The notes below the pieces were generated by a model. The model made no database searches and was not told the origin of the DNA. It saw nothing but the letters and a program-made list of their open reading frames with translations. A program made the position numbers and the translations under genes. Source: Strigops habroptila (Eukaryota > Chordata > Aves > Psittaciformes > Psittacidae). From it: 64,000 nt of DNA. Of the stretch, positions 1,980 to 49,945 are shown one piece after another; position 1 is the first letter of the stretch; each line of letters starts with the position of its first letter. The stretch lies in contig NC_044288.2 in assembly GCF_004027225.2 (NCBI RefSeq), positions 21,710,744 through 21,774,743 on the forward strand. The letters are read 5' to 3'.

Positions 1980-3193
1980 CAGAGTACAAATAAACCTTTA
2001 TTTCTCCCTGCTGCTGGAAGGAAGAGGTACAAACACCCTGGCTGAGCAGGAGCTGTCCTCCATCGCCAGGACTATGCGCCGGGCACACATGGCCAGCCCT
2101 GCTCCCATTGACCACCCTTCTCCCCCCACAAATATGCCATGTTAGATGCAAGAAGGGAACTAGGGGGTGACTTGGGTGTCCTGACCCTGCTCCATGGGCC
2201 CAGTGCTGGAGAGGGGACATCATGCTGTGTTCCCCCATGCTGGCAGGCACCGTGCGCCCCGTGCCTGACACCGTGGACGCTGCCGAAACATGCAGGCACC
2301 ATGTTTCTGCTTTCATTTTCCCTTTTACTTGCTTCCCGTGGTGCTTGGCCCAGTGGCAGATGTGCCACCCAGGAGCGAGAGCACATGTGGCAGCATCCCC
2401 AGCCCTCCCAAGACGGGGTACCACAGCTCAGCATCCTGGTCCCCATTAGTCCTCTGGTTCCCACTAGTCCCCGGGTCCCCACTGGTCCCCACTCCCAGCC
2501 GGCTCTGGGGTCAGAAGGAGGAGGAGGGTGCGTGCTCCATGCTGGAGGAGTGTGGGGTACACATTGTTGCTGCTGCTGGGCACAACTTGACCCCCAGGTC
2601 GGTGGCCACCCCTTTGGCACAGCGGGTCACGTCACCGGCTGGCCCGGCCCCGGTGGCTGGCCCTCGTTCTTCCTGAGGATGACGCTGCTGAGCTCCTGGA
2701 TGAGTTTGTCGTTGATGGGTGAAGGAGGCTGAATGCTCCTCTTCCTGGCCATCTCCACTGTGGTCTCCGCACTGGGACTGCTCCCTGGTGTGGCTGCCTG
2801 CTCCCAGTCCCTGCCCAGTGCCAGGGAAGGTTCCATGTTCCTCTCCAGAGAGGCCGTTTTGGTGGGTCTGAGCCCCTGTGCTGGAGCTTTGTCGCTCTCC
2901 AGGTTCAAGCCCCTCTCGAGGGACAGGGCTTTGGTGACAGAGGGACCTGCCACCCTCTGGGCCGGGCTGGCGGGCAGCGAGGAGCGCAGTGCTGTGGCTG
3001 GGGGCTGCTCAGGGAACGGGGATGGCTTCTTGGACCTGTCCATGGGGGGCACGGCCGACAGGTCTGCCAGCAGCCCCTGCCCCAGCTCCAGTGTGGCCAG
3101 CTCTGGGAAGTTGCCCACCTCCTCATAGACAGGATCAGCATCTGCCTCCTTCTCTTGCTGCTCCTCCAGGGAGTCCTGGTGAATCTTCATGGG
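1980..3193 (-). CDS. ARAP3: ARAP3 last exon: C-terminal tail, stop and 3' UTR
   Basis: The exon starts in phase 0 at 3193 (PMKIHQ) and stops with TGA at 2627-2629. It encodes residues 1589-1776. PVYEEVG (Tyr about 1611) matches the tyrosine-phosphorylation motif of mammalian ARAP3, which as I remember it is present there in two consecutive copies; here there is one. The rest is low-complexity Pro/Ser-rich sequence ending in a conserved LIQELSSVILRK stretch. The 3' UTR runs to about 1980 and contains a three-unit 18-bp repeat. The 3' boundary is inferred from the poly(A) signal. Confidence 0.93.
1989..1994 (+). terminator. Poly(A) signal of the PAR-like receptor gene
   Basis: AATAAA lies 308 bases after the receptor stop codon, giving a short 3' UTR. 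Cleavage would be expected about 10-30 bases further right, inside the 3' end of the opposing ARAP3 transcript. Confidence 0.75.
1997..2002 (-). terminator. ARAP3: Poly(A) signal of ARAP3
   Basis: The + strand reads TTTATT, which is AATAAA on the ARAP3 strand, about 625 bases beyond the ARAP3 stop codon. It is separated by only two bases from the AATAAA of the convergent receptor gene. Confidence 0.75.
2436..2489. repeat. 18-bp tandem repeat, three units, in the ARAP3 3' UTR
   Basis: Three consecutive 18-bp units of the form CTGGTYCCCAYTRGTCCY lie at 2436-2453, 2454-2471 and 2472-2489, differing at a few positions. This is a short minisatellite in the 3' UTR that could vary in copy number. 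Confidence 0.85.
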
Positions 3194-6100
3194 CTGCGGG
3201 AGGGCAGGATGTCAGGGTGAGGGGCACTGTCCACAGCACTCAGCAGTATACCCTCCATCCCCCCTCACCTTGCCCTCCCTGCAATCCCTGCCATGGACAC
3301 ACTATCCATCAGCTCTCTTGGCTCAAGGCACTGTAGCCCTTTCTTCCCCATTGCTGATGTTTGGTGAGTGTTATGAACCTGATAGTCCATGCCACCAGGC
3401 TGTAGCATCAGCCCTGCACCCCTTGGCAGAGGTGGTCTGGGGTGGGAAGGGAAGATGGGTGCCCATGCAGAGCACAGAGCCAGGCTAGGTGAGGTCCAGC
3501 CAGGTGGTCTCCATGCGAATAACCTGATGATGAGGAGGACCTAAACCTATTTCCTCACATATGTTGATCCTTTCCGGGTAATGGGAGAGGCTGTGGGAAC
3601 TGGGCTGGACTGTTGGGGTCTTGCTTGCACACACTGGGACCACGCAGGGACCCCCATCCCTGGGTATAGGATGCCCAGAGCAATAGGCACTCCCTCCTCT
3701 GCCACACAGGGGGGGCAGGATGGCCTGGGCATGTCTCAAGCGTAGGTGACATCTCATTGCCAGCAAAGTGCAAAGCCAGCAACAAATGCACTCAGTGTGT
3801 GGTGGTACTTACAAAGAACATGGACAAAGTCCTTCGCGTGTGCAGGCGGCGCTGGAAACAGAAGAGATGGGCAGAGGTAAGCGTGAGATAGCAGGGAGCA
3901 GGGTTGCGGATGCCTGGGCAGGCAGCAGGGAGCTGCCATGGGCACAAGCACAGCACCAAGCACAGGGACACCCATCCAAAGCATCCATCAGGGACAGGCG
4001 CACGCATCCAGCTCTGGGGACCTGGGGTGGGTGCATGGAGCTGGGTGGGTGCATGGAGCTGGGTGGGTGCAGAAGCATGGGGTAGCTGTGGGGCTTTACC
4101 AGGGTCTGGTTGGCAGAGAGCATGGTGGCATCGGTGCTGTCGCCGTGCAGCGGCACCAGCGGCATGGTGCCGAACTTCTGCTTGGCGAGGTCGGAGGAGG
4201 AGCGCCGGCGCAGGATCACGGGGCGCAGGTCATCGTGCTGTGCACAAGGACAGGGAGCGGGGTCATGCTGGGCTGCCCTGCCTGCCCCCTTGAAGCCCAG
4301 CACAGCCAGCCTGCACCCACCTGAGCCTTGAGGATGCTGGTGGTCCAGTCCCACAGCTCAGCCTGCCCCGAGCACACCAGGTACCTGCAGTGGAGTCAGA
4401 GGAGAAGCTGCCAAGGAGCAGGGCCAGTGGGGCCCATGTCCCCTTGTCACTTTGACTGTGAACCCGGGACTGTCAGGCACAACTACACCTCTGAAACTGT
4501 GCCCAAATCATGCTTCAGAGCAAAGTGAGAGCTCCTCAGCTCAGATGCCCTTGCTGCCCTTAGCAGAACATCTCAGCCCCATGTCCCTGCCCCAGTATCA
4601 GTAGTGTCAGAGGAATGGGGAGGGCCTGAGCAGGATGCAGGGATGTGTCCGGTGCTAGGGAAGCAGGGGCAGGGAGCCCAGCTTGGTGCAAGGCACAGGA
4701 GCACTTGGTGTTGGGTGATGGGGACACAGGCTGGGTGAAGGCTGGCAGGCAGCACAGCCATGCAGGTGCCACGCAGACCTGAGCAGGGTGGGAATATCCC
4801 TCTGGAGCCTGCTGTGGGTGCTTGGAGCCACATCCCCCAGGGGTGCTGGTGTGGATGGGGAGGTAGGAGGGGTGTGTGGTACGGAGATTGCCCCTAGAGC
4901 CTGGCCCCCACCTTGTAGCAGGGCACATACAGCCCCACCACTCTGTCCCTCAAGTGCCCCAGCCAGGCACCAGCTCTGCCCTGACCCTGGGGCCCCATAG
5001 CACTGCCCCTGGCTGTCCCACTGCCACTGAAGCTGGGGACCGATCTCAACACCCCCAGCCCCAGGGGGGCAGGGACAGGTACTCACAGCTGCTGCTTGTC
5101 CAGGGTCAGTGTGAAACCCCACCTGGGGAATGGAAGAGACAGGCTGTGAGGAGGCACTGCCGAGCTCAGACATAGCCCAGCGTCTGTGGGCAGCAGTGGG
5201 GTGCTGAGCTTGCCCCATGGGTCCAGGCTTGTCATGGGCTGGGTCCCAGTAGGGCTTGGCATGCTCCCAGTGGCTGTGTGTGGGTGGCCAAGGGACCGAG
5301 GGATGCATGGCCCAGGGAAGGTCCCACTTACTGGGCTGGTGGCTTCAGCTTCTTCCTAATGCCCATGTAAACCTTGGCTGCATCCAGGGGCCACTCGCGC
5401 TCCGGTTTGGCACTCTGGGGAAGGAGATCCATTGGGTCAGCCCAGCTTGGTGCCAGCTTCCCTGCCAGGAGGACAGCCGCCACTGTGACACTGCTGTCCC
5501 CATGTTCCCCTCCCTGCCTCTCCTCCCTCAGCATCCCCTGGGTACCCTCTTCTCCTTGAGCAGCAGCAGCCTCCGGTCCCGGATGACGAAGTAGCGCTCC
5601 TGAAACTTGTTCCCCAGCAGCTTGGGGGGCTCCTCGCGGCACTTCAGCAGCCCACACTTGGGGGTCTCACGCTTGACGCCTGCTCATTTTGGGGACACAT
5701 GGGTCAGGGTCCCACTGTGCATCTCAGGGATTTGCCCCTGATGGCCGCAGGGTGGTGGCCAGGGCAAGGGGAAGCTCAGGCAGAGCTGTCCCCCCTGGTG
5801 ACACTGGGGTGCCTTTGTGGTTACCTGTGAAGAGACAACTGCCCTCGCCGATGGGGACCTTCTTCACCAGCAGGTACGCGGCGCTGGGCTCCGGGAGCTT
5901 GCACCACTGCAAAGCTTGCTCCAGCACCTTCTCCTTGGGGTGCAGGGGCCGCTCTGGGGAGGCACAGACACTCTGTCCCCTTCCCTGTCACCAGCAGCAA
6001 GCTGCCCCCTTACCCCACACCTCCTCCTCACCATGCCGAGAGCATCCCCCCGTGCCATCCCCACCACACTCACCCAGCTCCCCGTTCTCCAGGGCCTCGA

Positions 6101-9100
6101 AGGTCAGCCAGATGTCCAGGCTGGCTGCCACGTTGCGCATCTCCAGCACATGGTTGGTGAGCTCCTCTGCTGTCATCGTGGGGGACACCTGCGGCCGGAC
6201 ACACGGGGAGCTGTCGTGGGTGGTGGCAGGATGGGTCCCAGGCTGTGCCAGAGCCTGCATTCCTCCTTGCCTCCCCCAGCACGGCCCTTTTTTGGTACTC
6301 ACCTTCAGGGTCACGCAGCAGTCAGGCAGCTTCTGCTCCAGGTAAACCTCGATGATGAGGTCTCCTGCCTGTGAGAGCTGGGGGAAGATCAGGTGGCATT
6401 GGTGCTGTGCTGGCATGGGTGCTGTGCATAGCCTCTTCCATGGGGCTGGTGATGGTGACCCAGGGAGCTGGGGGTGCTTATCCCCTGGGCAGGAGCCTCA
6501 AGGTGATGGGTGAAGGGGACACAAGTGGGGGAAGGTCCTTCTCCATGTATCTGGTGTGGGACAGTGGGAACCTGGGAGTCCCACCAGCCCAGGGATCCCT
6601 AATGGGTGCTGGCAAGCACATCCCCAGTACCTGGGTGTCCTTCCAGGTGGTGATCAGACTGTTCTCCAGATCCATCTGGGAGACCTGGTCCTCATCAATC
6701 TGCCAGAGGAAGGGTGCACAGGGTGAGAAGGGAGACACATGGAGTCAGTGTGGAGTGGGATATGGCTTGAGGACACATGGCCAGGATGGAGGGATGCAGG
6801 AGGAAGCAGAGTTGGGTAATATGGGGGGCTACAGGGGGAGACAGACAGAGTTAGCATGAAAAGGCCCCTGCAGGGAGCTTACATTGAAGATGCTGACATA
6901 GTTGTCAATGAGGTCTTCCATCACCTTGACCTCGTGCTCCCCTTTGCCATCGGTCTGGAAGAGGCTGGGTGCGAAGAGAAGCGACAGGTTCTTGGTGCTC
7001 ATCTGGTTGAGGTCCGCACATTTCTGCACCCTGGGACAAGGAGGACAAGGTGAGGGGCTGGTCCCATGCTGGATGGGGTTTCAGCCCCAGCCACCCTCCT
7101 CTACCTCATACAGACTCTCCTCAAAACAGCTGTGGAATGTGGTATTTTTCCCTCTTTTTTTTTGGGCACTGGGTGAAGTTTATGTCCTACAGGGGGGTGT
7201 CCTTTACTCCCAAACCTCCTGTCACTCCCCTTTGCTGCAGGATAACTTTGGGAACATTTGAGATGTCCCAGAGCATCATGCTCCAGCACACCCCAGCAGC
7301 TGGGAGGCTGATGGAGCAGGGCACGGGCACTGGGCTCTTCCTGTCTCCCTGGAATGGGATCCAGCATTCCCTGGGCAGTGGGGTGACCCCACACTGCTGG
7401 CTGGCCTTGGGTACCCTGGCTGGACTAGGGGACCCTGCAGGGAGGTGGCCACTGACCGGTAGAGGTGCCCGATGAGCGCAGCCAGGGTCTTGTGGTTGAG
7501 GCGAGGCAGGCGATGAATGAGCTCCTTGTACCGCTCCAGGCGCTGGGGCTTCGAGGATATTTCTGGAGTGAGGAAAACAGGTCATGGCTTAATGGTGAAT
7601 CCAGCAGATCCAGAGCTGACACGGCACCAGGACCCTGCCCTGAGGGACATTGGCTCAGGCGTCCCTGGCAGGCAGCCCAGTGTGGCAGAAGGATGTACCT
7701 GCAGCTTCCTTCCACTGCGGGTGCAGCTCCAGGGTGAAGACAGGATCTTCCAGCTCTCGAAAGAACCTCTTCAGCACGTCTGTGACATCCTCGATGAAGT
7801 TATCATTGATGCGCAGCTTGACGTTGCGGGCGTCCCGCCGGAACTCCTCCATCAGTACCTTGATCCGGGACTTGGCTCCGTTCTTGCGGTAAATCCCCTC
7901 ATGCCGCAACCCTGGGACAGAGACATGGGGTCACGGGGGCCTGATCCTGCCCAGAGAATCCCTAGTGGGGGTCCCTGGCCCTGTTGGCCATCCCATGTGT
8001 GTTGGAGGATGCTGTGGCCGTGGTCCCCCCGCCGGACTCACCGTACTGCGTGATGAAGGCGATGCAGCTATCCACGATGATGGGGATGTCTGCCCGGCTC
8101 AGCTGCTGGTCGCGCAGCGCGTTACCCCGGCCCCCCGCTGATGCCTGGATGTCGCTGTACCACGCTGCCGAGTCCGCCCGCGACAAGCCCTGCAGGTAAA
8201 ACGTCCTGAGAACAACAAGGGCAGAAAAGAGGGAATGAAGGTTGCCAGGGGTGGCAGGTTATCCCCTCCTGCCCGTATGCACAGGGAGCAAGGCACAGCC
8301 AGGCTGAGCCAGGGGACACCCTACCCCAGTGAGACCCCAGGCTGCGTGACCTCTGTAAGCCCCTTGGCCACAGCCCTACAGTCCCAGTAGCACCCCCACC
8401 ATGGGTTTGGGATCAGCATCAACCCATGAATGAGTGCCTTTGTCCTGCGCAGCCTGCTGAGGTTGCTTGGCTCATTCTCCGTCATTCCCACAGCCAGGCC
8501 TCACCTCCCCATCTCCACCAGGATCAGCATCTCCTTCTTTTCTGGGGTCTCCGTGGGGGGAACCAGACCTGCATTGGGGGAAGAAGTAGAGGGGTCAGAG
8601 CCATGCATGGGCGCCCACCACATGGTGCCTTGTCCCGGGCTGCAGCACTGGCACTCACTGAGCTCCTGCAGCCGCCGCAGGTTGATGCTGTCCTCAGCCC
8701 CGTCATCCTCGGCGGGGCAGATGAAGAGGTGGGCTTTCTGCAGGATGAAGAAGGCCTGCTGCCACCGCTCGGGGTTAAGCATGCACTTGTAGCGCAGCTG
8801 GCCCACGCGCTGGAACTCGTAGCCCAGCAGGCAGTGACAGCTCACGGGTGTGAACCACTGCGGGATGGAGCAAGAGGTGAGCTGGGTAAAGGCAGGGCTC
8901 AGCACCCGAGCTCAGACCCCCCACGAAGATGGGGACAGGTTGCTGGGGAGGATGGGAGCCCCTGCAAAGGGAAGGAGGGTGCTTGCCACAGAGGATGAAG
9001 AGTGTGGGAAGCACAATGGGGAAGCAGGGACAGAGCACAGGGACCCACCAGTGGCACGGGGCTGGCTCACCTTGCCGACGGCGCTGGCCCATGCTTGCAG

Positions 9101-12100
9101 CGTCTCGGGCCCATCGGTTCCCAACTGCTGCACTTTCTCCCCAGTGAGGAAGAGCTCGAGGGTGAAGCGAAACCTGCAGAGGATGAAGTAGCCCATCAGG
9201 GCAGCCCCTTACCCTGAACCTGCACGCAGAGCCAGAACAAGGAGCAGGAGCAATGCCCATCCGCAGGCTCCCTGGGCATGCAATGGGGGCACAAATGGGG
9301 GTACCTTTCAGTGGGGCCAGGGCTGACGACTGCCTGAGCTCTGCTCACGCCCATGGAGAGGAGGTCCCCGCTCTCGATGTGGCCCAGGGGCTCGGTGCAT
9401 TTCTCTGTCTCGAAGAAGAGCAGGGCTCTCTCCAGGGAGCACCACGTGCGCTGGAAGTCTGCGGGACCAGGGGGTCAGTGGCACTGGGGTGCGCACCTGC
9501 TGGCTGCCCTCCTGTGCTCCCCACACTTACCCTCTTTGCTCTTCTTGGTGCCTGGGAGCTTGTGGGGGGCTGTGGCCCGGTACAGGTACCCGCTGTGTGC
9601 CACTGGCTGAGTGATCTCGTTGTAGACACTCTCCGGCCCTGGTTCCTGTGCGTGGGGGGTCCCTGTGGGGGAATGGTGCTGATAGAGGGGTGGGAGCAGG
9701 CACCCACCAAGGCATGGGTACTGGAGGGGCAGGGAGAAACCACTCATGCAGGTGTAGGCAAGGGGGTGTGCCAGGCATGGGATTCCCTGAAAAGGGGCTC
9801 CAGAAGAACCCACTGCTTTGCCCCATCCCAAAGGGGGGGTGCAGTGGGGCAGGTGGGTCCCCCACAGCAGCTGATGTCCTGGCTGTCCCCAGCCTTGGAG
9901 TGTGCTGTGGGGGGCAGCGGAAAGGAGGAAGCCCCCATATCACAGGCAGATGGGGCTTGAGGGTCCTCGTACCTGAATGGCTCCTGGGCCTTTTCCTCTC
10001 CGGTCCCCCTGGTGCCACCTCGCAGGCAGCAGGGTCAGCCGCCAGCCCAGCCTCCGTGGATGAGAAGAACTGCAGGATGGTCTTGAGCAGAGCTGGTCCT
10101 GTCACCGCAGCGCACAGTGCCTGGGATGGGACAAGTGCCTGTAGGGACCATGTCCTGGCACACAGAAACCCCCAGCCTGCTGCCAGGGGTGCTTGAAGGC
10201 AGGCAAAGAGGGCACAACCTCCTACCCGAGCCCCCAGAACTGCCTGGCACAAGGGTGCAAGCACAACAGAGCCAAGCAGGAGGTGTTGGCATCTCAGCCC
10301 AAGAGCTCTGGGATGGTTCCCAGCACCCCAACACCCTGCCTGCATCCTAAGGTTCCCTGCTCCTACCTGGAGCACGTCCTCCTGAGTGGCGTAGTGGGGA
10401 TGGGGCAGGCGGTACCATCCCTCTCGGTACTTGCGGGAGATGAAGTCCCGTCTCTGCTCGGCGCTGGCATCTGGGCACAGGGCCTCGGCGGCGGGGAGGC
10501 GGGCGGCCCAGAACCGGTTGGCTCGGTCATTTCCCAGCATGATAAAGAGCTGTAGGAGAGTCCCATGGACATGGCTAGGGTCAGACGGGAGGAACAGCAT
10601 CCCTGCATCCCGAGGGAGACTGTGGGGCTGCTGCCCTGCCTGGAGAAGCAGCCTGGCCCCTGAGCCTGCCGTGCCAGCCCCAGTGCCCTGCCCTGAGTGC
10701 CTTTACCTGTACGATCTCATTGGACCACACGCTGGTGTCAAGCTTCAGGCTTTGTACTTTGGAGATATTGGAGCCCAGGCTACGGTGCTGCCCTGTGGGG
10801 AGCAGGACAGTGAGGACCCCTTGGTCCCACCAGGGGAACCAGTACCCAAGTTGCACCCATACCCCAGCCAGCACCCTGACCCATGGCACCCCAATATGCC
10901 CCCCAGGGAGATGTACTGGCCTGCACACTGCTTGCAGATGACCACGCACAGGTTGATGGATGCCCAGTCGGGACTCGGAGCCCAGCAGTCCGCACAGTGT
11001 TTGTTGGCTTTGTTGGACCAGATCTTCTCTGCCACCTCGTAGTCGTAGAGCATCTCAGCTATGGCCTCCTGCAGGGCCTCCATCCACTCCCGTTTCTCCC
11101 GCTCCGACTCCGCCACAAAGCTGTGAGCACCAGCACAGCCAAAATTCAGGGGTCTGGAGCAACCAGCACCCAGGTCCAGCATCAGGCTGCTCCCCCCACC
11201 TCATCCCACTGGATAATTGGGATACCTGAATATTTTGGAGGGGGTGATGAGCTCGAAGCTGCGGTTCTTGGCTTCGCGGATGGTGGAGCCACGCATCTCA
11301 ATCACGCAGATGCCAATGCCCATTTTAAAGAACTGCAATTCAGAGTGGCACTGGTGTTGGCTCCGCAGCACCGTGGCTGTGCGGGACACACCACCCCAGA
11401 CATGCCTGTGATGCTGGGCCTGGAGCCGGGTTGCTGCATCCAGCATCCCCAGCATCCCATCCCTGCTTTGCCTGGACAAGCCAGACCTGGTACCATGCTA
11501 CATCTACCAGCTACCTCATGAGGGCTGACATAAAGCATCCTGCAAATACATGATGGCTTAAACTGAAAGGCAAGTTCTGCACACAGCCCCTGAAACCCGG
11601 GCATTCAAGTGCCTCAGTTCTGGGGTCAGGCACACTCATAAGGAAAGCATCAACTTGAGCAGAAACCACAGAGACTTGATGCTGAGCAATGCACGTCTGG
11701 CAAACTGAAAATGAAGTGACTGGAAAACACCAGGGGTGCTGAGAAACCTCAGCAGGCAGGAGGAGGAGAGTCCCGTGGGAAGCAGGTCACAGTGAAGAGA
11801 CTGGGACAGGGGTCCATTCCTGGTACCTGCATCTCCAAGCCCAAGCTCCTACTACTGCTGCCCTGTGCAGGATCTTCAGCTTGCTGATCTGCCATTCCCT
11901 TTCTCCTACACATTTTTTTCCTCTCTGCTCTCCCTTTGGCACCAGCCCTAGCTAAAATCCCTCCGTCCCTCCATTGCTCTCATCCCATCCACCATTAGCA
12001 CAGCCCTCTGTGTCCGCTCCAGTCACGAACCTGCTCACTCTTGTACAGCCACATCTCGGGCAGGCTCAGGGTTGCGAACACCTTGGACTTCTGCCCCTTC

Positions 12101-15100
12101 AGCTCCAGGATTCCTGACTTCTGGCAGTGGGCGGTGTTGGCGGGCCGGGGCCGGGACCCCACCAGGCGCTGCTCCGTCACCTTCTTCTGCAGCGTGGAGC
12201 ACCACTCATTCCTCTGGGCTGGGGACCAGGTATGAGGGAGCGGGTCTGAGCCCTTCCCAACAGCCCTGGCATGGAGCAGAGCACCCAGCGGACATGGCAG
12301 GGGACAGGTCCCCTTGCTCATTGTGGCTGGATGGTTTGGGGATGGGGTGAGAGCTGTCCCCGGGATGCTCTGGCTGGAGAATGGAGGCAGGCACCAGTGG
12401 TCCCTGGCCGGGGTCTTCGCTTACCCTCATTCTCAGCACGGAAGACAAAGATCCGGTGGCTGGTGATGACTTGGAACTTGTTGTCCTTGGTGGAGCGAGC
12501 CATCTCAATCACAGACAGCGGGACCACCCCCTTGGGGTAGGGCTCCTGGAACAAGCCCCAGGCAGGGTTATCCCCCTTTGCCCTTCCTCTGGGACACATC
12601 CATAACCCGGCCACCCAGCACCTGTCCCTGTGGTGCCATACCCATAGGGGTAAGGAGGTGGGGCAGAGCCCACAAGCTCCTGCAGTTGTGGGCCGTGCAT
12701 GGCACGTGTTTCTGCATGGGTGCCACTGATGTAGGGCCAGGGCAGCAGAGTCTGTCACTCCAGGCGGCGTGGCAGCCACCAGCACCCCACATCAGGCCTA
12801 AATGGGGCCATGCACCCACAAAAGCATGAGAGGACGTGGGACAGGAAAAGGTTGTTGTTTCATCACATGCACCTAACCCACAGCGCAGCGCTCACAGCAA
12901 GAAAAGCTGCTCTGTGCAGCACATCTCAACACCCCGCAGGTGCTCGGCTGGGTGCTGCCTCAAAGCACAGCCCAGGGCCACCAGGAGATGAGGATTTAGG
13001 TAGGGATGGGTCCATGGTGGGACCCAGAGATCCCCCATTTGCAGTCTGCTCCAGTGCTTCGGAGCCAGAAGAGCCCCCCTTGCCTGCTCTCTGTTGGCAG
13101 AGGGACTCTTGCTACCCTGGGCTTCCCATGGCACGAGGCTGTTTTCAGAGCCCCACCATGGCTGCTCTGCCCTGGTGATGGTGAAGGAGTGCTGGCTCCT
13201 TACAGAAGGACAAGGGGAGGCAAAGGGGATACGACAGCTCATGTGGTGTCAAGACACCCTGCTCTGGGTGCAGCCTCCCCGCCCTGCCCACATCCTGCCC
13301 CTTCGTACCTTCTCACTGCTGAAGTACATCAGGTTCTTCCCGTCGAAACGGACGTAGCGCCTCTGGAAGACATAGTTCCTGTTGGGATGGCAGAAAAACG
13401 GGGCTGTTGGGAAGGGAATGATCCCCCCAGGGACCCCTTATCTGCTCACAGACCCCCCCTTCCCCTAAGAATGGCTGCACAGAGACCCTTGCAATGGTAC
13501 CCAAAAGGGTCCTCCTCCTGTGGGGACGTCTGGCACGGTGACCAGTGTGCCCATCACACCAGCCTTGCCCAAGGGGGGCTTTACCTATGGGGACTGTCCC
13601 ATGGGTGGGCACATACCCCTGTGGGGAAAGCTTGTCCAGCCATCCACTGAGCATGGTGGGCCGGGGCTCGGACAGCGACGTGAAGCTGGCGTAAGGGGAG
13701 ATGGTGAGATCATCCAGGACCTCGTCCGGGTAGAGATGTGCAGGCAGGATGAACGGGGTGCCCTCGGCCCGCGGTGCCTCCACAGTGGAGTATCCCTCTG
13801 TGTCATTCTGGATGATGCGGTCAATGAGCCGGGACCGGGTCTCCTCGTCCTCACTCCTTCCCTCGCTGCTGCACTCGCTGCTTGTCCTGTGGGAAATGGG
13901 GCTGGGAGGGAGCTGGCCTGTGGCAGCTCAATGCCATCCCTTCTGGGACTGTCTCACACTGCTCCTGGCCTCATCCTGAGCTCCTGGGGGCACCCAGTGA
14001 TGTGGGTGTTTGCATCTCCATGAGCAGGGTGGGACAAGGGCTCAGTGATCATGAGCCCCATAGCCATCAGCAGCCTGGGGCTCAGCCAGCCTTACATGGT
14101 GGCAAGGCTGGGGCTAGCTGGCAAAACGGGCTTCCCACTGTGGGTAACACTGCACAGGCCACCACACATCTCCAAACCCCCGGCATCACCTCCTGCCCCT
14201 CTTCACAGCAGCAAAACAAGCCCAGTCCCACCCCCTGCTCCCCGCTCTACACCCACCCCAGACACCTCCTCACCAGGGGTCTCTGCTTCCTTCACTCTCT
14301 ACCCCTCCAGCGTTCATGGTACTGAGAAGGTCCTTCAGCCATGACAACCTCCTGCCTGCTCTTTTGTTTTGCAAAGAGATTGGGATGGAGAGATGGGCCT
14401 GAGGAGCTCCTGCAGCCATCTCCTGTTCTTGGGAAGCTCTGCTATCCCCCAGCCAGGCCTGGTGAGCCCATCCAGCCACAACAATAAAAGGAAGTTATAA
14501 AAATAAGCTTCTAAGCCTGCCCCTTCCCCTCAGCACTCTCAGCCAGACGTGTTTCTTTGCCTGGAAAGGAAATGTGCTGGAAAATGTCTGACAGTCCCAG
14601 GAGCAAACAGCCGAGCTGCCCAGGTGCAATGGTGATGGGCAGCAAGAGGGTCATGGAAGTTGGGACACCCCAGCAACCAGCACCATGCCACTGGGTCACT
14701 GATGGCATCCAGTGCCAGGATGAAGGAAAGGCTCCAAGAGAGGCAACAAGGATGGTCCAAGCCCTATCACAGCTTCTGCCCGATGAGCACCTGAGCAAGT
14801 GGTGCTCCACTTCTCCAGTGGGGAAAGGGCGAGTGATGGGGCAGGTTCCTGAAGCCATGAGCAGCATGAGGAGGGCAGAAAGGCATCTCCCCTTTCTGCT
14901 GCCACAGGAGCTGGGTGACGGCAGATAAAGCCAGCAGGCGCAAGGTGCAGAACCACATGGGAAAGGAGCATCTGACCTGTGGGAATCCTCACTATGGGAT
15001 GTTGTAGAAGGAGAAATTTATGGAGGAGAAATCCACTGGGGGATACTTAATATGAGAAACCACCTCCAGCAGCATCCCATGTGCTAGAAGTGCTTTTGGA

Positions 15101-18100: not shown

Positions 18101-19815
18101 CCCTGGGTGCTCTCACCTGATGTGCTGGTGGGTCTCTGTGGGACGGGGGGCAAGCCGGGACTGCTGGAAAACAGGAGAGGTATTATTGTGGCTCCAGCCA
18201 GGATGGGGAGGGATCTTTCCACCTTGTTTTCCCATGTAGCTCACTTTGCTTCTGGCCGGGGCTGAGCCCAGCTTCACCCCCAGGATGTGCAATATCCCCT
18301 CCCTGCTCCCAGCACCCTCCTTTGCTCCCTTCCTCTCCCAACCCCATGCTGTGTCTCCTAGGGCTGCCGGGCATTTCCCATCCCAGCTCACCGCCTTCTA
18401 ACATATCCCACCTTGCTCCCAGCAGGAGCCAGACCCAGACCCTCCCTCAGCCACCCCTCACCATGACAGGGACCCCCAGCCCTGCTGCCCTGGGAGGGCA
18501 GAGGAGGGGCAGCAGCTTCTCCCCCCAACCAGAGGAGCCATGCGGGGGCCCAGGGCCACCCTGTCATCTCGGAGGGATCCCAGCTGCCCTGCGGGCTGGC
18601 TCCATGCAGAGCCTGGGGAAGGCACGGGAAGAGTGGTGAAAGGGGCTTGTCAGCACCCAGAGGCAGGCAAAGCCAGGCTAGGAATGGGGTCCTGTGGGGG
18701 GACGGTTTCTCTGGATCCTTGGATCTGGATGCTCTGCACCCCCCCCTCCACTCCATGTGGGGAGGGAAAGCATCTGCTTACTCAGGCTTGTCCGGCTGTG
18801 TCAGCTCCTGCGGGGACAGAACCTGACCCTGGGGACCATCCTCCCCTCCCGAGTCCTCAGCGGGTGCTGACGGGTGCTTGAGTCCTTCATAGATGACGTT
18901 GGACACCATCTCCATCCTGCCCTGCGCTGAGGCAGGCTGCAGGGCTGGCCTGGGGCACGGCGAGGGGTCTCTCCTGGCTGGGATGGATGTGGGGTGCCCC
19001 TCTGGCACACTCCCAGCGCTGGGCTCCGCTGCCGGGACCCTATGGCTGTGCCGTGGTGGGACAGATGGGATGAACAGGGGGGACTTCTCCGATGCCTCCA
19101 GGGTTTGTCCATGATCCGGAGCTGGTGGGGACCGTGTCTCCTCCCGAGCGCTCTCCCGCACCCGCAGCCGGGATAATCCCATGCCCATGGCTGCCCCTGG
19201 GCCAACCGGCTGCACTGGCTGGGGATCTGGGCTCTCCAGATCCGTGGAGCTCTCCCCTGGCACAAACCCCTCCAGTACCACAAAGGCTGCAGTTGCCCTG
19301 TCTCTGCCTGGGCCGTGTGCCGGCACCGTGGTGCGCGCCGGCGGCGCAGGCGCTGAGCCCTGCTCTGGCTTGGAGCGAGGGAAAACCGTCCTCGGCTTGG
19401 GAACGGGCTTCACGAGGGGAGGAGCAGGGTCCTTCTCTAGAGGCGATGCCTGGGCGGGCGCAGCGACACGCTGCTGCGTCCCCAAGGCGTCAGTAGCCCC
19501 TCCTGGCTCTGCTTTCATGGCATCCTTGCCCGTCTGGGGGGCATCCAGCACCTCGGTGGCTTGGAAATGGGTGTTTTCCGCTGCGAGTCCACTCCAGGAC
19601 TGACTAAGCACCCGTGTCTGCTGCACCAAGTTCAGGATCCTTTTGCGGTGCCCGGTGGCGGTGATGCCGAGCTGCTGCAGGTGGTCACTGTCCAGCGAGG
19701 CGGCGTCTCTGGCCACATGGTACCCATGCTGCTTGAAGACATCCCGGTACCTCTCCAAGTGGATGGTGGCCAGCCAGTCTGCGATATCAGAGTCAGGACC
19801 GCACAGAGAGCTCAT
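2627..19815 (-). CDS. ARAP3: ARAP3: ArfGAP with RhoGAP domain, ankyrin repeat and PH domain 3 (whole coding region)
   Basis: A dual GTPase-activating protein that inactivates Arf6 and RhoA at the membrane in response to PI(3,4,5)P3. I read 33 coding exons by homology and splice sites: 18782-19815, 18117-18163, 17791-17864, 17507-17577, 13617-13886, 13309-13378, 12425-12545, 12031-12218, 11226-11332, 10921-11120, 10707-10792, 10367-10549, 9973-10120, 9531-9662, 9305-9458, 9071-9173, 8659-8857, 8505-8568, 8042-8205, 7699-7911, 7457-7562, 6883-7030, 6631-6699, 6303-6377, 6074-6188, 5825-5953, 5546-5679, 5332-5414, 5087-5122, 4321-4384, 4100-4237, 3813-3851, 2627-3193. All phases agree and the total is 5331 nt (1776 aa), versus about 1540 in human. 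Most of the extra length is in the N-terminal linker and the C-tail. ARAP3 is preferred over ARAP1 because of the SAM domain, the PVPKPRTVF motif, the QKFGTMPL motif and the C-tail. Confidence 0.97.
3813..5679 (-). CDS. ARAP3: ARAP3 exons for PH domain 5 and post-PH region
   Basis: Six exons (5546-5679, 5332-5414, 5087-5122, 4321-4384, 4100-4237, 3813-3851) encode residues about 1424-1588. The fifth PH domain runs from about 1428 to 1530. It includes KLLGNKFQERYF, the EREWPLDAAKVYMGI core and the terminal WDWTTSILKAQ helix with the conserved PH tryptophan. The next exon carries the ARAP3-diagnostic LRRRSSSDLAKQKFGTMPL stretch; its SSS run resembles a basophilic kinase site. The 39-nt exon 3813-3851 encodes only 13 residues (RRLHTRRTLSMFF) and has a strong GTAAGT donor. 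Exon 5087-5122 is only 36 nt. Both very short exons are multiples of three, so skipping them would keep the frame. Confidence 0.93.
4027..4080. repeat. 18-bp intronic tandem repeat, three units
   Basis: The unit GTGGGTGCATGGAGCTGG occurs at 4027-4044 and 4045-4062, with a diverged third copy at 4063-4080. It lies in the ARAP3 intron between exons 3813-3851 and 4100-4237. Confidence 0.85.
5825..6699 (-). CDS. ARAP3: ARAP3 exons for the Ras-associating (RA) domain
   Basis: Exons 6631-6699, 6303-6377, 6074-6188 and 5825-5953 encode residues about 1295-1424. After the end of the RhoGAP domain come LITTWKD and then a ubiquitin-like RA domain. Its core reads SQAGDLIIEVYLEQ, CVTLKVSPTMTAEELTNHVL and, at the end, YLLVKKVP. 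In mammalian ARAP3 this domain binds Rap1-GTP and boosts RhoGAP activity; the same role here is inferred from the close match. The acceptor at 5954-5955 (AG/AGCGG) is fixed by the reading phase, because the alternative two bases further on breaks the frame. Confidence 0.93.
6883..8205 (-). CDS. ARAP3: ARAP3 exons for the RhoGAP domain
   Basis: Exons 8042-8205, 7699-7911, 7457-7562 and 6883-7030 encode residues about 1084-1294, with the RhoGAP domain at about 1117-1294. The start is the LSRADIPIIVDSCIAF helix. The arginine finger lies in GIYRKNG (Arg about 1147, near 7886-7888). LKRFFRELEDP, LPRLNHKTLAALIGHLYR and the NLSLLFAPSLFQTDG helix follow, as in active RhoGAPs. All catalytic-site landmarks are present, so the domain should be active; mammalian ARAP3 prefers RhoA. 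The donor of exon 7457-7562 is GTCAGT, weaker than its neighbours. Confidence 0.95.
8505..9662 (-). CDS. ARAP3: ARAP3 exons for PH domains 3 and 4
   Basis: Exons 9531-9662, 9305-9458, 9071-9173, 8659-8857 and 8505-8568 encode residues about 867-1084. The first begins before the conserved VYNEI motif and SGYLYRA, the start of PH3. PH3 closes with the GTDGPETLQAWASAVGKW helix. PH4 follows, with a phenylalanine-rich strand (QQAFFILQKAHLFIC) and LRRLQELS, ending in KKEMLILVEMGRT. The acceptor at 9663-9664 rather than the AG nearer the exon is required by phase and adds TPHAQ. ARAP3 PH3-PH5 are thought not to be the main PI(3,4,5)P3 binders, which are PH1 and PH2. Confidence 0.92.
9973..11120 (-). 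CDS. ARAP3: ARAP3 exons for the ArfGAP zinc finger and degenerate ankyrin region
   Basis: Exons 10921-11120, 10707-10792, 10367-10549 and 9973-10120 encode residues about 661-867. The first contains the end of PH2 and then AEKIWSN and the ArfGAP zinc finger CX2CX16CX2C (Cys 703, 706, 723, 726). The catalytic arginine is in the HRSLG motif (Arg about 731) at the start of the next exon. KVQSLKLDTSVWS, LGNDRANRFWA and ISRKYREG follow, as in human ARAP3. The ankyrin stretch is weak, covering ALCAAVTGPALLKTILQF and a variable basic tail. Phase forces a non-canonical GC donor after 10921-11120. Confidence 0.95.
10919..10920 (-). other. ARAP3: Probable non-canonical GC splice donor in ARAP3 (GC-AG intron)
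   Basis: On the gene strand the exon ends TGTGCAG and the intron would begin GCCAGT. No GT nearby keeps the frame into the next exon (acceptor after 10792, GGCAGCACC), whereas this GC donor restores CAGQHRSLG exactly. Positions +4 to +6 match the donor consensus; +3 is C, which is atypical. Confidence 0.7.
11226..13886 (-). CDS. ARAP3: ARAP3 exons for PH domains 1 and 2
   Basis: Exons 13617-13886, 13309-13378, 12425-12545, 12031-12218 and 11226-11332 encode residues about 409-661. The first carries an acidic Ser-rich linker and then SPYASF and SGWLDKLSPQG, the start of PH1 (about 487-581). NYVFQRRYVRF, PKGVVPLSVIEMARS and WCSTLQKKV complete PH1. PH2 (from about 598) starts at GILELKGQKSKVF and continues with WLYKSEQFFKMGIGI. 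In mammals this tandem binds PI(3,4,5)P3, PH1 with high affinity, and recruits ARAP3 to the plasma membrane. The KxnRxR pattern of PH1 strand 1-2 (KLSPQG...QRRYVRF) is present. The 11333-12030 intron holds nothing recognisable. Confidence 0.94.
13887..17506 (-). other. ARAP3: Large ARAP3 intron without recognisable genes
   Basis: This 3.6-kb intron separates the linker exons from the PH1 exon. I see no exon with good splice signals in frame, no CR1 tail and no tandem repeat. The centre (14.4-16.5 kb) is less GC-rich than the rest of the gene and may hold decayed repeats or intronic enhancers. Confidence 0.6.
17507..18163 (-). CDS. ARAP3: ARAP3 linker exons (Pro/Ser/Tyr-rich)
   Basis: Three short exons encode residues about 345-409: 18117-18163 (SPGLPPVPQRP, an SH3-type proline motif), 17791-17864 (VSEQLVSPYSETIFG) and 17507-17577 (GVGISSDQSYEAVSEL). 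Each has a clear GT donor and the phases 2-1-0-2 fit. Two tyrosines sit in SPYSE and QSYEAV contexts and could be kinase targets. The acceptor of the first exon reads CAGCAG, so it may start at 18163 or 18160, adding or omitting one serine without changing the frame. Confidence 0.85.
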
Positions 19816-19855
19816 GGCCCTGGGGTGCCTCTGCGACGGATGCTCAGCCCATCAT
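18782..19855 (-). CDS. ARAP3: ARAP3 first coding exon: start codon, SAM domain and proline-rich linker
   Basis: The ATG at 19813-19815 opens a 345-residue stretch. Residues about 8-68 form a SAM domain (IADWLATIHLERYRDVF, LGITATGHRKRIL), which in mammalian ARAP3 binds the SAM domain of SHIP2. KPVPKPRTVF (about residue 135) is identical in human ARAP3 and is a proline/arginine motif of SH3-ligand type. EMVSNVIYEGL near the end matches another short conserved block. The rest is low-complexity and longer than in mammals. The exon continues 40 bases 5' of the ATG to an acceptor after 19855, so the 5' UTR is spliced. The donor GTAAGC is at 18776-18781. Confidence 0.95.
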
Positions 19856-21590: not shown

Positions 21591-21760
21591 CTCTCGCCCC
21601 GCAGCGCGGTCCGCAGCCCCCCCGGCCGGTGGCAGTGCCGCTGCCGGCTCCGTCCCGCTCTGGGCTCCAGGGTGATGCAGAGGTGTCCCCCCCCGGGCAT
21701 GGGGCGCAGCCCGCAGGTACCGCGCACGGGAACCGCTGCGGGCACAGCCAGGCTCCGCAG
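21591..21760 (-). promoter_or_regulatory. ARAP3: Candidate ARAP3 non-coding first exon in a CpG-rich block
   Basis: About 21560-21760 is dense in CpG (GCCGCCGTCGG, CAGCGCGGTCCG, TACCGCGCACGG). On the ARAP3 strand GGGGCGAGAG/GTGAGG at 21591/21590 is a near-perfect donor. Since the first coding exon has an acceptor upstream of its ATG, this is the best candidate for exon 1 and the promoter. The transcription start cannot be placed from sequence. Confidence 0.5.
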
Positions 21761-25930: not shown

Positions 25931-25950
25931 CTTGTGCACACAGCAACCCC

Positions 25951-25956
25951 TTTATT
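25951..25956 (-). terminator. Poly(A) signal of the STARD10-like gene
   Basis: TTTATT on the + strand is AATAAA on the gene strand, about 670 bases past the STARD10-like stop codon. It is the first such hexamer downstream. Confidence 0.65.
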
Positions 25957-26624
25957 GTTGTGCCAGAAACCACAGCAGCGGCAAACACCGAGAGAGTGGG
26001 GACAGAGGCTGCCGAGACCCCACTGCCAGGACAAGCCCCCCCAACACCACTGGGAAAGGGGTCCCCAGAGCCAGCTGGGCTAGAGCCAGCCTCGGAGGTG
26101 AGCCTGATACCCAGGAGAGGACCTGGGAGCGCTCCCTGAGATAGGGGGGTCACACTAAAACTGAGGGGACTTGGTGGGCTGAAGTGGGTCCAGCCTGATG
26201 GTGGGGCTGTCAGAGCTGGAGCACAGGCCAGAGAGGCTTAGTGCAAGCCCTGTGCTGCAGCAAAGCCTGGGCAGGACCCCCATAGATCCCCCTACTTCTG
26301 GACCTTTGAGGGGCACCCCTAGAAGGTCTTACAGTGGCAAAGGTATATCCTGGTGCCAGGAAAGCTCCTACCCACCCCCTGAAGGGCTCCCCCTCTCTCT
26401 GCCCAGCCTCTCCTTGGGGCTCCCGCTCCCACTTCCAGCTTTATGTCCTGCATGGGGACATCATTTCCCATGGGACAGTACCTTGCAGCACTGCTAAGGG
26501 GGTCTATGGTGAAGGAGTTGGGGAGCAGACATGACTACTGGGGTGCAGGGGGCCAAATCCCCACCCGTGCCCCCCCCCCGCTGCCAAGCCTCGGTCACGA
26601 GGGGGTCCCCTGTGCGGTGAGGGC

Positions 26625-29600
26625 TCAAGCCTCATGGTCACTGGTGCTCAGGTGGTCCTCGGGCAGCCCGGTCTCATCGATGTTCTCCAGCGAGTCGGCG
26701 TGCTGCACCGAGAGCTCGGCCAGGCTGACACTGGGCAGCGTGTTCTGCTCCGGGTACACCCAGGGCTTGTACCCGGGGTCGTGCTTGCGTTTCCACTCCG
26801 GGTACTTCAGCCCAGCCTTGTAGATCTTCTTCATTGCCTGTGGGCAGAGCGGGACCAGCCCACCACAGTGCCCCAGGTCCCCACTGGGGATGGAGCCACC
26901 CTGGTCTGCAGGCACAGCTCCCATCTGCCCCATTACTTGCTTTTTGGGGGTGCTTGGAGGGGATGGGGGCTTAGTGGTGGCTTGGACTACACAGACCTGC
27001 AAGCCCTGGGTCACCCAGCACCCATCCTGCGAGGTCTGGGTCACCAGCATCCATCCTGCCCCTACCTAGGGGCTACTTCAGGGCAGCTCATCCCTGATAC
27101 CCCTGCATCCCACCAACGGCCACGCACCCTGCTTACCTTTGGTGCCACAAACTGGGAGACACGGTTCACCACCCACTTTGGCAGCGACCCTGCAAGAGCC
27201 CAAAGCCCCATCGCTCAGGCGATCTGGGCCCTGCACAGCACCCTGTGCCAGACTCAGCACCCCCCAGCACTGATGGCTGTGCCCTGGGAGGTGACCCGCT
27301 TCTTCCCTGGGTTGTCCCCGCTTCCCTTTGGTGATGGAGAGCCACAGTGGGTGAGCTCTGGGGGTACAATGGGGGGCATGGTGCACCTTCCCCTCCTGCT
27401 GGCACTCACCACGAGGGTCCACCTGGGTGAGATAATAGAGGATGCAGGCACCGGTGCCGTTCGCCTTGATGAGGTAACCTGTCTGCAGGGACACGGCTCT
27501 CACAAAATCCTTCCGGGGGGGGTATTTCTGCAGAGAGACCCCGTGCACCTCAGAGCCTGCCCCAGCCGCTGCCCAGCCCTGCCTGTGCCTGCTGGCACCA
27601 GCACCCTGCCAGCGCTGGAGCTCACCGGGTGCTTGACGCTGTAGTTGATGATCATGTAGTCATTGCCCAGGGGCAGCCAGGAGCGCAGGGTGACGAAATC
27701 CCTGTTCTTCAGCGGGCTCGGGCATTTCCCTGCGGATAGACCCTGTTACATCCCAACCCATTGCCTCTCGTGGCCCCGTAGCCATGCACGGTGCTGTGGG
27801 GTCAGGGAGGGGGTCCCCAGGAGCTGCTCACAGGAGTAGTATCCCACGTCAGCATTCACCGTCAGGCGCCCGATGTCGTAGGTCTCGATCATGTTCGAGT
27901 CCCATTTCTTGCGGTAGTCGGTGTCGTGCAGCACGTCATAGAGTGTCTCGGCAGGGACGTCCTTGCAGGAGATGCGAGTCTGGGGGGGTGACAGGCAGTG
28001 GGGCAGGGGTGCAGCACCCACCCCAGAGCACAGAGCAGCGCCTGTCTGGGGATGAGGACTTCAGGCTGTTCCTGTGTGCGGTGGCATGTCCCCGTGCTGC
28101 TGTAAACCCATGTACACGTGTGCCATGGAGGATGCTCTGCACACACACGGTGCAGGGCATGTCCCAGCTTCAGGACAGCCCAGGGTAGCCAGAAGGTACC
28201 CAGTGGGTAGAAGGACCCTCTGCTCTCAAACGGAGCTGCTTGGAGGTCTAGGCTCGGCTGCCTGGGCACCCCGAACCCAAACCTGCTCAAGCACAGGGAT
28301 GCTCCTGCCCCGGCATGGTGGTTTTGGTGTGGGGTCCAGCCCAGGGGGGTTGGTGGGGCCCCGGCTGTAACCGGAGCCGTGGAGCTGCCCGACCCGGCAG
28401 CGAGTGCATTATTGATGAGCTGGCCGCTAGGTGCCGGGAGGAGGGAGATGTCATCTGCTCCTCGTTAGAGGCCTTGCATCTTTGATGAGGTGCTCAGCGC
28501 TGGTGGGTAACTGGAGATGCCCCTCTGAGCGTGGCAGGTCCCATCAATCTCGGGCAAGCGTTCCCCGATGGCCCCGGTGACGGTTTCTGCCCCGTGTACT
28601 GGACTCGTGCCCAGGGCAGGCTTGGAGATGTGCTGCAGCCCCCGGGGCACCAGGGAGTAGAGTGTGGGAGCACCCAGCCCCCTCGTCTGACCCCCAAGCC
28701 CCATGCTGTGCAGCTCAGCTCATGGGTGGCATCCTCCATCCTGCGTTTTGGGAAGGGTCCCAAACCCATGCACCATGCCCAGGCCCTCTCCAGATCAGGG
28801 AAAAACCACATCAAGGAGGTATTCCTTGCAATGAACCAGGGTGATGGTGCTCAGGCACCCCAAACCTGCCTCTCTATGGGGCTTGGTGGTGGCAAGGGGG
28901 GTACAACTGCACCCCCGCTGCTGGGCTGTGCGTGTTTGACCTTGGCTGGACTTCGTGAGGTTCCTGCCAGGAGCAGCTTTGTCTCCAGCATGTCAAGTGC
29001 TCTCCACGCTTCAGTGCTGCACACACTGCAGACTTGCTGATGGGGCACTCGATCCCGTTATCCCAGTAACAGGGTGGGATCCAGCAACTGGCCACCATTC
29101 AGACCGTGCACTGCTGCCCACCATGCTGTGAGCCTGGTGCTGAGCTGGTTTTCTACCCACCTCATCATCGGCTTCTCCAGTCCAGATTCCATCAATGTGG
29201 TGATGAGGGCACTATGGGAAACCCTGCCAAAGGTTTTACTAAAGTCAAAGTACGGGGCTTTCACTGTTCTCCCCACACCCAGCCAGCCAGTCCTCTCATT
29301 GCCGGAGGCAATCAGCTGGTCTACCATGATTTGCCCTTGGTAGGTCCCTGCTGCTATCAGCACTGCCCTTGTCCTTCAGGACATGGCTTTCAGAAGAATC
29401 TTCTCCATCCCATCCAGGCCATAGTGCCCTGGAGCATCCTTCTTGCCCTTCTGGAAGATGAATGTGACATTTGCCTCTTCCCAGTTATCAGGGACCTCCT
29501 GCAGTCACCAGGACTTTTCAAAGAGACATTGACCAGCACCTCCCGGGTGCATCCTGCCTGGTCCTGTGGACTTGTGCATGCCCAACTGGCTTAAGTGCTC

Positions 29601-31091
29601 CCTGATCCTAGCCCAAAAGCTCTTCCCTGGCCCACAGCAGCAAGGCAGGATGCATTACAGCTACACCTCTGTAAGGAGTGCTGCTCCTCCTCCTCACCTT
29701 GCCCTGAAGGGCCTCCCTCCATGGCAGCACCGCAATCATCGTGTGCCCAGCTCCACCTTGTGTCTGCCCAGCCGCAGGCCCGTGAGCTGGGCTTGCAGTT
29801 ACTCTGTGGCCAGGAGAGCAGCGCAAGAGCCTCCTCCAGCATAGTGTACCCCAGACACCCCCACCACCTCCCCATGCTGTTCAGGTCATAGTAACCCTTC
29901 CCTGACACTCCTAGTTGACAGCTCTCTTTGTCAAGCTGGCTGTCCCATAGGTAAGATGCTCCTGTCCTACTTGCTTGGGCAGATCCCATCCCTGCCCAGC
30001 AGCCCTGAGCCTCGGTGACCAGAAAAGCCAAAGCCCTGCCCGTGACACCAGTCATTGACCCGCAGGATGATCACACCCAAGGCTTACCCTGTAATGGGGC
30101 TCCCTTGCCCCCAGCACCCTGTAACCACTCTTGATGACCTCAGGGTCACCTGCCAGCGTCACTGGTGCCATATAGAGGAGCAATAAGGTATAACAACCTG
30201 AGGGATGGTTGAACCTCATCTCAGATCCATTCTGGAGGTGAGGAAGGAATTGTTTACAATGAGGGTGCTGAGGTGCTGGCACAGGGTGCCCAGAGAAGCT
30301 GTGGCTGCCCCATCCCTGGCAGTGTTCAAGGCCAGGTTGGACACAGGGGCTTGGAGCAACCTGCTCTAGTGGAAGGTGTCCCTGCTCATTGCAGGGGCCT
30401 TGGACTAGATGACCTTTAAAGTCCCTTCCAACCCAAACTATTCTATGATTCTATGATCCAGCCCCTGGCAAGCAACAAACACCCTAAGACAGCACATGGG
30501 AGCTCTTAAACTCTCCAAGATGCTCCCCCAGTGCAGGATGCCAGGGATGCACCCCAGGATGGTGTGGCTGGGGGAGAGGCACCAGGGAGGCATCCCGTCA
30601 GCCTGTCTCATGCTCGGGGGCTCCCAGCAAGGCCATCTCTATAACGTAATCGATCCTGGGGCCTTCCCTCCTGTGTCTGGATCAAGGGCAGCCGCAACGT
30701 GAGCCCACATGCGTGCATGGTAGGATGCTGCAGCGGCATCCCTGCAGGTCGAGAGGCTAAAGCCACAGGACAGGAAGCATCAGCCCTGGCGTTCAGGGCA
30801 GGAACACCCCCAGGCAGGCTGGACCAGGGTGCTGTGCACCCCCAGGATGGGCCAGCACCCAGGGACCCTCGGGTGCAGCTGAGGTAAGGAAGGGCTGTGG
30901 TCCCACAGCTGCAGGTGATTGCTTACCTTGATTTTCTGCACAGTGCAGCTTTCCTCCTGGCCCTGACTCCACACGGTCACGCCAGCCTTGTTATACCGAC
31001 AGTGCCAGCCCTCCAGGCTCTCGCACTGATCCCTGAAGGAGCTGAAGTCGGAGTCATCCGGGATATAAACCATCTCCCCTCCTTTGGACAT
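26625..31091 (-). CDS. STARD10-like START-domain phospholipid transfer protein
   Basis: STARD10 proteins carry phosphatidylcholine and phosphatidylethanolamine between membranes. Six coding exons fit in phase: 30927-31091, 27832-27979, 27626-27729, 27410-27527, 27137-27189, 26625-26837, totalling 801 nt (266 aa; human STARD10 has 291). The START domain covers about residues 10-225. Landmarks are VPAETLYDVLHD, YRKKWDSNMIET, LTVNADVGYYSW, LKNRDFVTLRSWLP, SVKHPKYPPRKD and LPKWVVNR. The C-terminal LSVQHADSLENIDE block is shared with STARD10. The N-terminal exon is only about half identical to human STARD10 and the tail is different and shorter. Together with the location beside ARAP3 rather than ARAP1, this suggests a paralogue, not STARD10 itself. 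The only in-frame ATG before the domain is at 31089-31091. Poly(A) signal at 25951-25956. Confidence 0.93.
29035..29635 (-). mobile_element. CR1 LINE ORF2 (reverse transcriptase) remnant
   Basis: On the - strand the frame around 29100-29290 reads YFDFSKTFGRVSHSALI and MMRWVENQLSTR, matching the CR1 reverse-transcriptase blocks around DFSKAFDTVSH and RWIENWL. The right part (CCTGTGGACTTGTGCATG, GGCTTAAGTGCTCCCTGA on the + strand) matches more 5' ORF2 sequence in order. It is broken by stops and has no 3' tail. It lies in intron 1 of the STARD10-like gene, on the gene's own strand. Confidence 0.85.
29640..30225. other. Intron 1 of the STARD10-like gene, unassigned segment
   Basis: This lies between two CR1 fragments. 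It contains no exon-like element I can support. It may include further decayed CR1, since several phrases look repeat-derived. Confidence 0.4.
30228..30457 (+). mobile_element. CR1 LINE 3' end with octamer tail
   Basis: The 3' region of the same CR1 subtype as at 23.7 kb, ending in AACTATTCTATGATTCTATGAT. The intact octamer tail marks a true 3' end. It is antisense to the host STARD10-like gene, in intron 1. Confidence 0.95.
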
Positions 31092-31154
31092 GGGGCTGCG
31101 CTGCCGGACCCAGGGCGCGGGCACTTGGCTGCAGGCAGGCTCCTTCTGCCTCAC

Positions 31155-33985: not shown

Positions 33986-33989
33986 TGGC

Positions 33990-48300: not shown

Positions 48301-48329
48301 CACCCGCTTGTGCTTTGCACACGTTGTCA

Positions 48330-48525: not shown

Positions 48526-48594
48526 TCCCTCTCCCACAGTCCTACACATGCCCTACCTGTGTGTTCCCCTTCTCCTCCCTGACATCCTCCTTAA

Positions 48595-49882: not shown

Positions 49883-49945
49883 TGCTCATCCTTTTGCCCT
49901 TCTTGCACTTCCCTTCTTCTTCTTCACTTCCACCACTCATTCCTT

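Follow-up and report, generated by a model that had tools for sequence, protein, structure and literature searches.

A STARD10-like gene beside ARAP3 in a bird genome, a probable ohnologue of STARD10

Introduction

Is the STARD10-like gene that lies next to ARAP3 in the genome of Strigops habroptila an old paralogue, kept since an early duplication of this gene neighbourhood, or a younger copy of STARD10? In humans, STARD10 is a leading effector gene at a type 2 diabetes locus, where it belongs to an enhancer hub of islets together with ARAP1, ATG16L2, and FCHSD2 (PMC7856552). Among the 15 mammalian START proteins counted in a review, there is a single STARD10 (PMC3634439). If an ohnologue of this gene has been retained in birds, results obtained for mammalian STARD10 may not transfer to them without considering the second copy, and the assumption that the STARD10 branch holds one vertebrate gene would have to be corrected.

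Here, we analysed a stretch of 64,000 nucleotides (C12:21710744-21774743, hereafter the window), together with whole-genome searches covering 1.149 Gb in 89 contigs. Positions given without a contig refer to the window.

STARD10L and ARAP3 in the window

The STARD10-like gene (STARD10L) runs from 31091 to 26625 on the minus strand in six exons and encodes a protein of 266 aa (Table 1). Its reading frame, opened by the start codon at 31091, is intact over 266 codons and ends in a normal stop, and all five introns have GT-AG boundaries. With the ARAP3 stop at 2627, these coordinates bear out the placement of a STARD10-like gene upstream of ARAP3 on the same strand, as described by an earlier sequence-only reading of this DNA. 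Over and upstream of the STARD10L start codon (31001..31700), the CpG observed/expected ratio is 0.44-0.59, with a window mean of 0.27; this stretch, which does not reach the 0.6 usually required of a CpG island, is a possible candidate for the STARD10L promoter.

The protein contains a START domain (Pfam PF01852, 111 bits vs. a cut-off of 22, E 6.5e-32, residues 19-210), while a match to DUF3074 stays under its own cut-off. Compared with START proteins of solved structure, CERT among them, STARD10L scores 432.5 bits with human STARD10 (6ser), and the next best is PCTP with 51.7 bits. The core motifs YRKKWD, SVKHPKYPPRKD, GSLPKWVVN, and LSVQHADSLENIDE are common to STARD10L and human STARD10. 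Residues R78, W81, and D82 of the first of these motifs align with YRKQWD of PCTP. According to a paper on the START family, Trp147 (STARD1 numbering) is invariant and the Arg144/Asp148 pair is common to PCTP and STARD13 (PMC3127847); on our reading of that numbering, these residues would fall in the RKxWD segment of STARD10L.

As far as literature searches show, STARD10L is an additional member of the well-known START family and not a new kind of gene, and no published description of a second STARD10 gene was found among the matches listed. Gene databases may already carry it, presumably as a STARD10-like or PCTP-like protein. Neither PMC5901865 nor PMC10208646 mentions STARD, ARAP, or FCHSD in its main text. 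Searching prokaryote and viral contigs for relatives gave 25 and 4 pattern matches, none of them confirmed, a result that is uninformative on vertebrates.

The identity of the neighbouring gene as ARAP3 was likewise borne out, with both its SAM and its RhoGAP exon matching human ARAP3 best among solved structures. The SAM exon scores 67.1 bits with human ARAP3 (2kg5) vs. 42.3 bits with ARAP2 (1x40), and the RhoGAP exon 90.6 bits with human ARAP3 (5jd0), the best other protein reaching 33.1. Pfam placed RhoGAP above its cut-off and PH and RA only under theirs, and the ArfGAP exon was recognised by eye and via its matches to both further ARAP genes of this genome. The first methionine lies at 19815 and the stop at 2627, in an open reading frame at 2627..3211 on the minus strand.

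To the right of STARD10L, no Pfam family was found at E 0.1 (minus strand 33998-63999; plus strand 32000-62001), in a search that single exons can escape, and the stretch 32000-64000 appears gene-poor up to a protocadherin gene at C12:21874370 (+), ~100 kb beyond the right edge of the window. A pyrimidine-rich stretch at 48001-50300 (GC skew -0.38 at 48001-50000) contains short tandem repeats (19 to 39 bases) as well as a plus-strand open frame of 464 codons, the latter probably a chance occurrence, and a minisatellite of CTGCACTGCACACACA-like units lies at 61680-62184.

Table 1. Positions, strands, and supporting observations for the annotated features of the window.
Feature	Position	Strand	Observation
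ARAP3 coding region	2627..19815	-	SAM, RhoGAP, ArfGAP exons
STARD10L exon 6, including stop codon	26625..26837	-	gene model and comparison with C2 STARD10
STARD10L exon 5, 53 nt	27137..27189	-	gene model and comparison with C2 STARD10
STARD10L exon 4, 118 nt	27410..27527	-	gene model and comparison with C2 STARD10
STARD10L exon 3, 104 nt	27626..27729	-	gene model and comparison with C2 STARD10
STARD10L exon 2, 148 nt, contains YRKKWD	27832..27979	-	AG and GT sites
Dispersed repeat fragment in STARD10L intron 1, outside the gene proper	30260..30463	.	many copies around ARAP1-STARD10
STARD10L exon 1, coding part with ATG	30927..31091	-	donor GT; alignment to human STARD10 begins at residue 18

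A separate ARAP1-STARD10 locus and the paralogous blocks

When the whole genome was searched in six frames with the STARD10L protein, 12 matches at E <=1 were obtained (12 scored candidates), which fall in two places only: the window gene itself and C2:122323311-122330186 (-), where all six exons are matched. The gene model at the latter place (C2:122323269-122330192, minus strand) has six exons and encodes 270 aa. Its intron phases equal those of STARD10L at 5/5 introns, and exons 2-5 have the same lengths (148, 104, 118, and 53 nt), so that the shared exon phases proposed by the sequence-only reading hold between the two copies of this genome.

Downstream of C2 STARD10, on the same strand, ARAP exons were found between 122283872 and 122313546, and they match the window ARAP3 at no fewer than 14 exon-bearing places in the same order and on the same strand. 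This gene is not a second ARAP3, because its RhoGAP exon scores 64.3 bits with human ARAP3 and that of the window 90.6; since the ARAP gene on C7 is placed as ARAP2, we take the C2 gene to be ARAP1. The genome thus contains, besides the window pair, an ARAP1-STARD10 pair at a locus of its own and equally oriented, the very locus for which the sequence-only reading had called, and the objection that a second STARD10 gene might not exist falls away.

Beyond 23.7 kb, repeats dominate the comparison of the window with the C2 ARAP region. The stretches 23713-23912 and 30260-30463 are pieces of a single dispersed repeat that is presumably CR1-like; their similarity to several C2 copies around ARAP1-STARD10 is 83-92%.

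The parallel extends to further gene families. Left of the window, FCHSD1 (SH3 domains) lies at C12:21704373-21708663 (-), where it was found with a human query and again with local protein pieces, followed by a RELT-family gene at C12:21693400 (+). On C2, there is one FCHSD-type SH3 exon at 121101997 and a RELT-family gene at 121361086, while C7 carries the third ARAP gene at 23117172-23142033, a RELT-family gene at 23629996, and a protocadherin at 21226293. Three of the eight RELT-family matches listed exceed the cut-off, one on each ARAP contig, and no STARD10 match was found on C7 in the six-frame genome search with the STARD10L protein. From the family or protein match and the human neighbourhood, we take the RELT-family genes to be RELL2 (C12), RELT (C2), and RELL1 (C7), the SH3 exon on C2 to belong to FCHSD2, the ARAP genes on C2 and C7 to be ARAP1 and ARAP2, and the protocadherin at C12:21874370 to be PCDH1; the human gene order is RELL2-FCHSD1-ARAP3-PCDH1.

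The resulting parallel sets are RELL2, FCHSD1, ARAP3, and STARD10L on C12; RELT, FCHSD2, ARAP1, and STARD10 on C2; and RELL1 and ARAP2 on C7. The ARAP, STARD10, FCHSD, and RELT families are therefore all represented on both C12 and C2, and ARAP and RELT also on C7, in line with the ancient duplicated block retaining a second STARD10 that the sequence-only reading had envisaged. Protocadherins were dropped as evidence for the block, since the family's two remaining matches are on C9 and at 85 Mb of C2, a long way from ARAP1. A search for the FCH domain found no FCHSD gene at the expected places on C12 or C2, where the protein search with local FCHSD1 pieces did find them, and an HDAC3 query found nothing convincing in the window, in the 20 kb to its left, or in an 80-kb stretch of C2.

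On C2, FCHSD2 and RELT are ~1 Mb from ARAP1-STARD10 and hence not adjacent to it. In human, FCHSD2 and the STARD10 enhancer cluster are separated by ~400 kb (PMC7856552); compared with this distance, the interval C2:121101997-122330186 points to a rearrangement or expansion.

Identity and age of the two copies

Human STARD10 scores 521 bits with the C2 protein and 432 bits with STARD10L. Over the 254 columns filled in all three sequences, C2 and human STARD10 are identical at 213, C2 STARD10 and STARD10L at 176, and human STARD10 and STARD10L at 178. Judged by these identities (213/254 vs. 178/254 for STARD10L), human STARD10 has its orthologue in the C2 copy. Our preferred reading of STARD10L is that it is a STARD10 ohnologue from the early vertebrate whole-genome duplications (2R), kept beside ARAP3, and we consider this very likely. 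As the locus was read in one species only, the age of STARD10L, putatively that of 2R, rests on synteny and distances.

A different origin, which we consider improbable, would be an avian or archosaur segmental duplication of STARD10 that landed beside ARAP3 and evolved fast. A recent avian duplicate is argued against by the nearly equal distance of STARD10L from bird and human STARD10. By site pattern, 47 of the 254 columns are identical in C2 and human STARD10 only, 10 in C2 STARD10 and STARD10L only, and 12 in human STARD10 and STARD10L only, with all three differing at 19. STARD10L therefore has the bird state at 10 of the 41 sites that differ between bird and human STARD10, where a recent avian origin predicts most, and, where it matches exactly one of the two (22 sites), it takes the human state 12 times. 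The claim of the sequence-only reading that this is not a recent avian duplicate agrees with this lack of any excess of states common with bird STARD10 (10 bird-only vs. 12 human-only sites). Calibrated with the bird-mammal split at 320 My, the probability of 12 or more human-state sites out of 22 under equal rates is ~3e-5 for a 100-My duplicate and ~0.10 for a 250-My duplicate; the clock argument thus rules out a duplicate of avian age only with roughly equal rates, and a duplication at ~250 My stays compatible. The divergence of the duplicates is 2.06 times that of bird and human STARD10 (95% 1.57-2.82), and the bird-human distance was the smallest in all 10000 of 10000 bootstraps.

With human PCTP as outgroup (25-26% identity), the best tree under LG+G4 places STARD10L outside bird and human STARD10, but the two alternatives fall short of it by no more than 1.5 and 0.9 log units and neither is rejected, PCTP being too distant to root the STARD10 tree. 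With this distant root, the AU test of the four-sequence trees gave p values of 0.69, 0.20, and 0.41 over 254 columns and 0.69, 0.17, and 0.42 over 176 columns, the old-duplication tree coming first (0.69) and the avian-duplicate tree at 0.20, hence without rejection. At the few sites where PCTP gives the reference state, bird and human STARD10 agree at 5, bird STARD10 and STARD10L at 1, and human STARD10 and STARD10L at 0. Against the avian duplicate, however, it would be a large coincidence for the copy to have landed by a paralogue of ARAP1, in the same orientation and amid FCHSD and RELT paralogues. Outside the exons, moreover, only repeats and one 37-base match are similar between the loci: a blastn comparison of window 23000-34000 with C2:122314001-122336000 gave 16 matches, 5 of them at exons 2-6, 10 in dispersed repeats, and one of 37 bases (E 0.001).

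An ancient duplication of a small block before the bony-vertebrate split, separate from 2R, is about as improbable as the avian duplicate. Distances do not discriminate between it and 2R, but three ARAP blocks with RELT-family genes, on C12, C2, and C7, form the usual 2R pattern.

Compared with C2 STARD10, STARD10L is identical at 28/54 positions in exon 1, 39/50 in exon 2, 28/34 in exon 3, 27/40 in exon 4, 14/17 in exon 5, and 43/70 in exon 6, with most drift in exons 1 and 6. The diverged N-terminus and tail noted from the sequence alone are thus real (28/54 in exon 1 vs. 39/50 in exon 2), and the tail is also shorter (266 vs. 270 aa in total). The two coding sequences differ by a dN of 0.27 and a dS of 1.04 (Nei-Gojobori), and the dN/dS of 0.26 shows STARD10L to be under purifying constraint; together with the little similarity outside the exons, this ratio argues for an old duplicate kept under constraint. 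We therefore think it very improbable that STARD10L is a pseudogene or an assembly artefact: it is known here from genomic DNA alone, but its open frame, its intact splice sites, its dN/dS vs. the paralogue, and its coherent gene neighbourhood on the 27.4-Mb contig C12 all stand against this. The reverse assignment, with STARD10L as the true STARD10 and the C2 gene as the derived copy, is scarcely credible even with six intact exons in both, given that human STARD10 shares 213/254 positions with the C2 copy vs. 178/254 with the window copy and that the C2 copy adjoins ARAP1, as human STARD10 does (PMC7856552).

Proposed origin of the blocks and predicted function

Under the ohnologue reading, ARAP, STARD10, FCHSD, and a RELT-family gene would have stood together in one ancestral block that was then duplicated. 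One daughter block would have given rise to ARAP1-STARD10 with FCHSD2 and RELT, a second to ARAP3-STARD10L with FCHSD1 and RELL2, and a third to ARAP2 with RELL1, on whose contig the search met no STARD10. The second STARD10 would then have been lost in mammals. The 15 mammalian START proteins of the review do not include STARD10L (PMC3634439). In cattle, one 337-kb interval includes ARAP3, FCHSD1, and RELL2, and no STARD gene is listed there, although the interval may end soon past ARAP3 (PMC10464233).

Phosphatidylcholine and phosphatidylethanolamine are carried by STARD10, which also bound phosphoinositides when tested by lipid overlay and whose pocket is larger than that of PCTP (PMC7322359). 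STARD10L would most likely act in the manner of STARD10, as a small cytosolic protein whose START domain takes up a single glycerophospholipid (phosphatidylcholine, phosphatidylethanolamine, or phosphatidylinositol) in its helix-grip pocket and ferries it between membranes. Its carrier chemistry is most likely the same as that of STARD10, and its tissue range or membrane targeting probably differs, as would be expected from the changed N-terminus and tail.

More tentatively, ARAP-STARD10-FCHSD may be an ancestral co-regulated block of which birds have two working versions, ARAP1-STARD10 and ARAP3-STARD10L-FCHSD1, with the second STARD10 lost in mammals and the carrier work split between the copies; we regard this extended scenario as possible but rather doubtful. 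If true, the phospholipid or phosphoinositide carrier work of the single gene at the human diabetes locus would be divided between two genes in birds.

Comparison with known systems

The closest known relative is human STARD10 (PCTP-like, PCTP-L; 6SER), which, like STARD10L, consists of a single START domain with the core motifs given above. The two are identical at 178/254 positions, whereas the C2 orthologue reaches 213/254, and STARD10L differs from STARD10 in its diverged exon 1 and C-terminal tail and in having ARAP3 as its neighbour, not ARAP1. PCTP (STARD2) has the START domain and the phospholipid/sphingolipid subfamily in common with STARD10L, and the Arg and Asp of RKxWD are kept, but only 44/176 aligned positions are identical and the score is 51.7 bits vs. 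432.5 for STARD10.

In its setting, STARD10L resembles the ARAP1-STARD10 pair on C2, where STARD10 likewise has an equally oriented ARAP gene as its neighbour. The human 11q13 islet enhancer hub of ARAP1, STARD10, ATG16L2, and FCHSD2 has its ARAP, STARD10, and FCHSD members represented by paralogues in the C12 block. A retained ohnologue beside ARAP3 would also offer a natural comparison by which the older parts of the regulatory block could be recognised.
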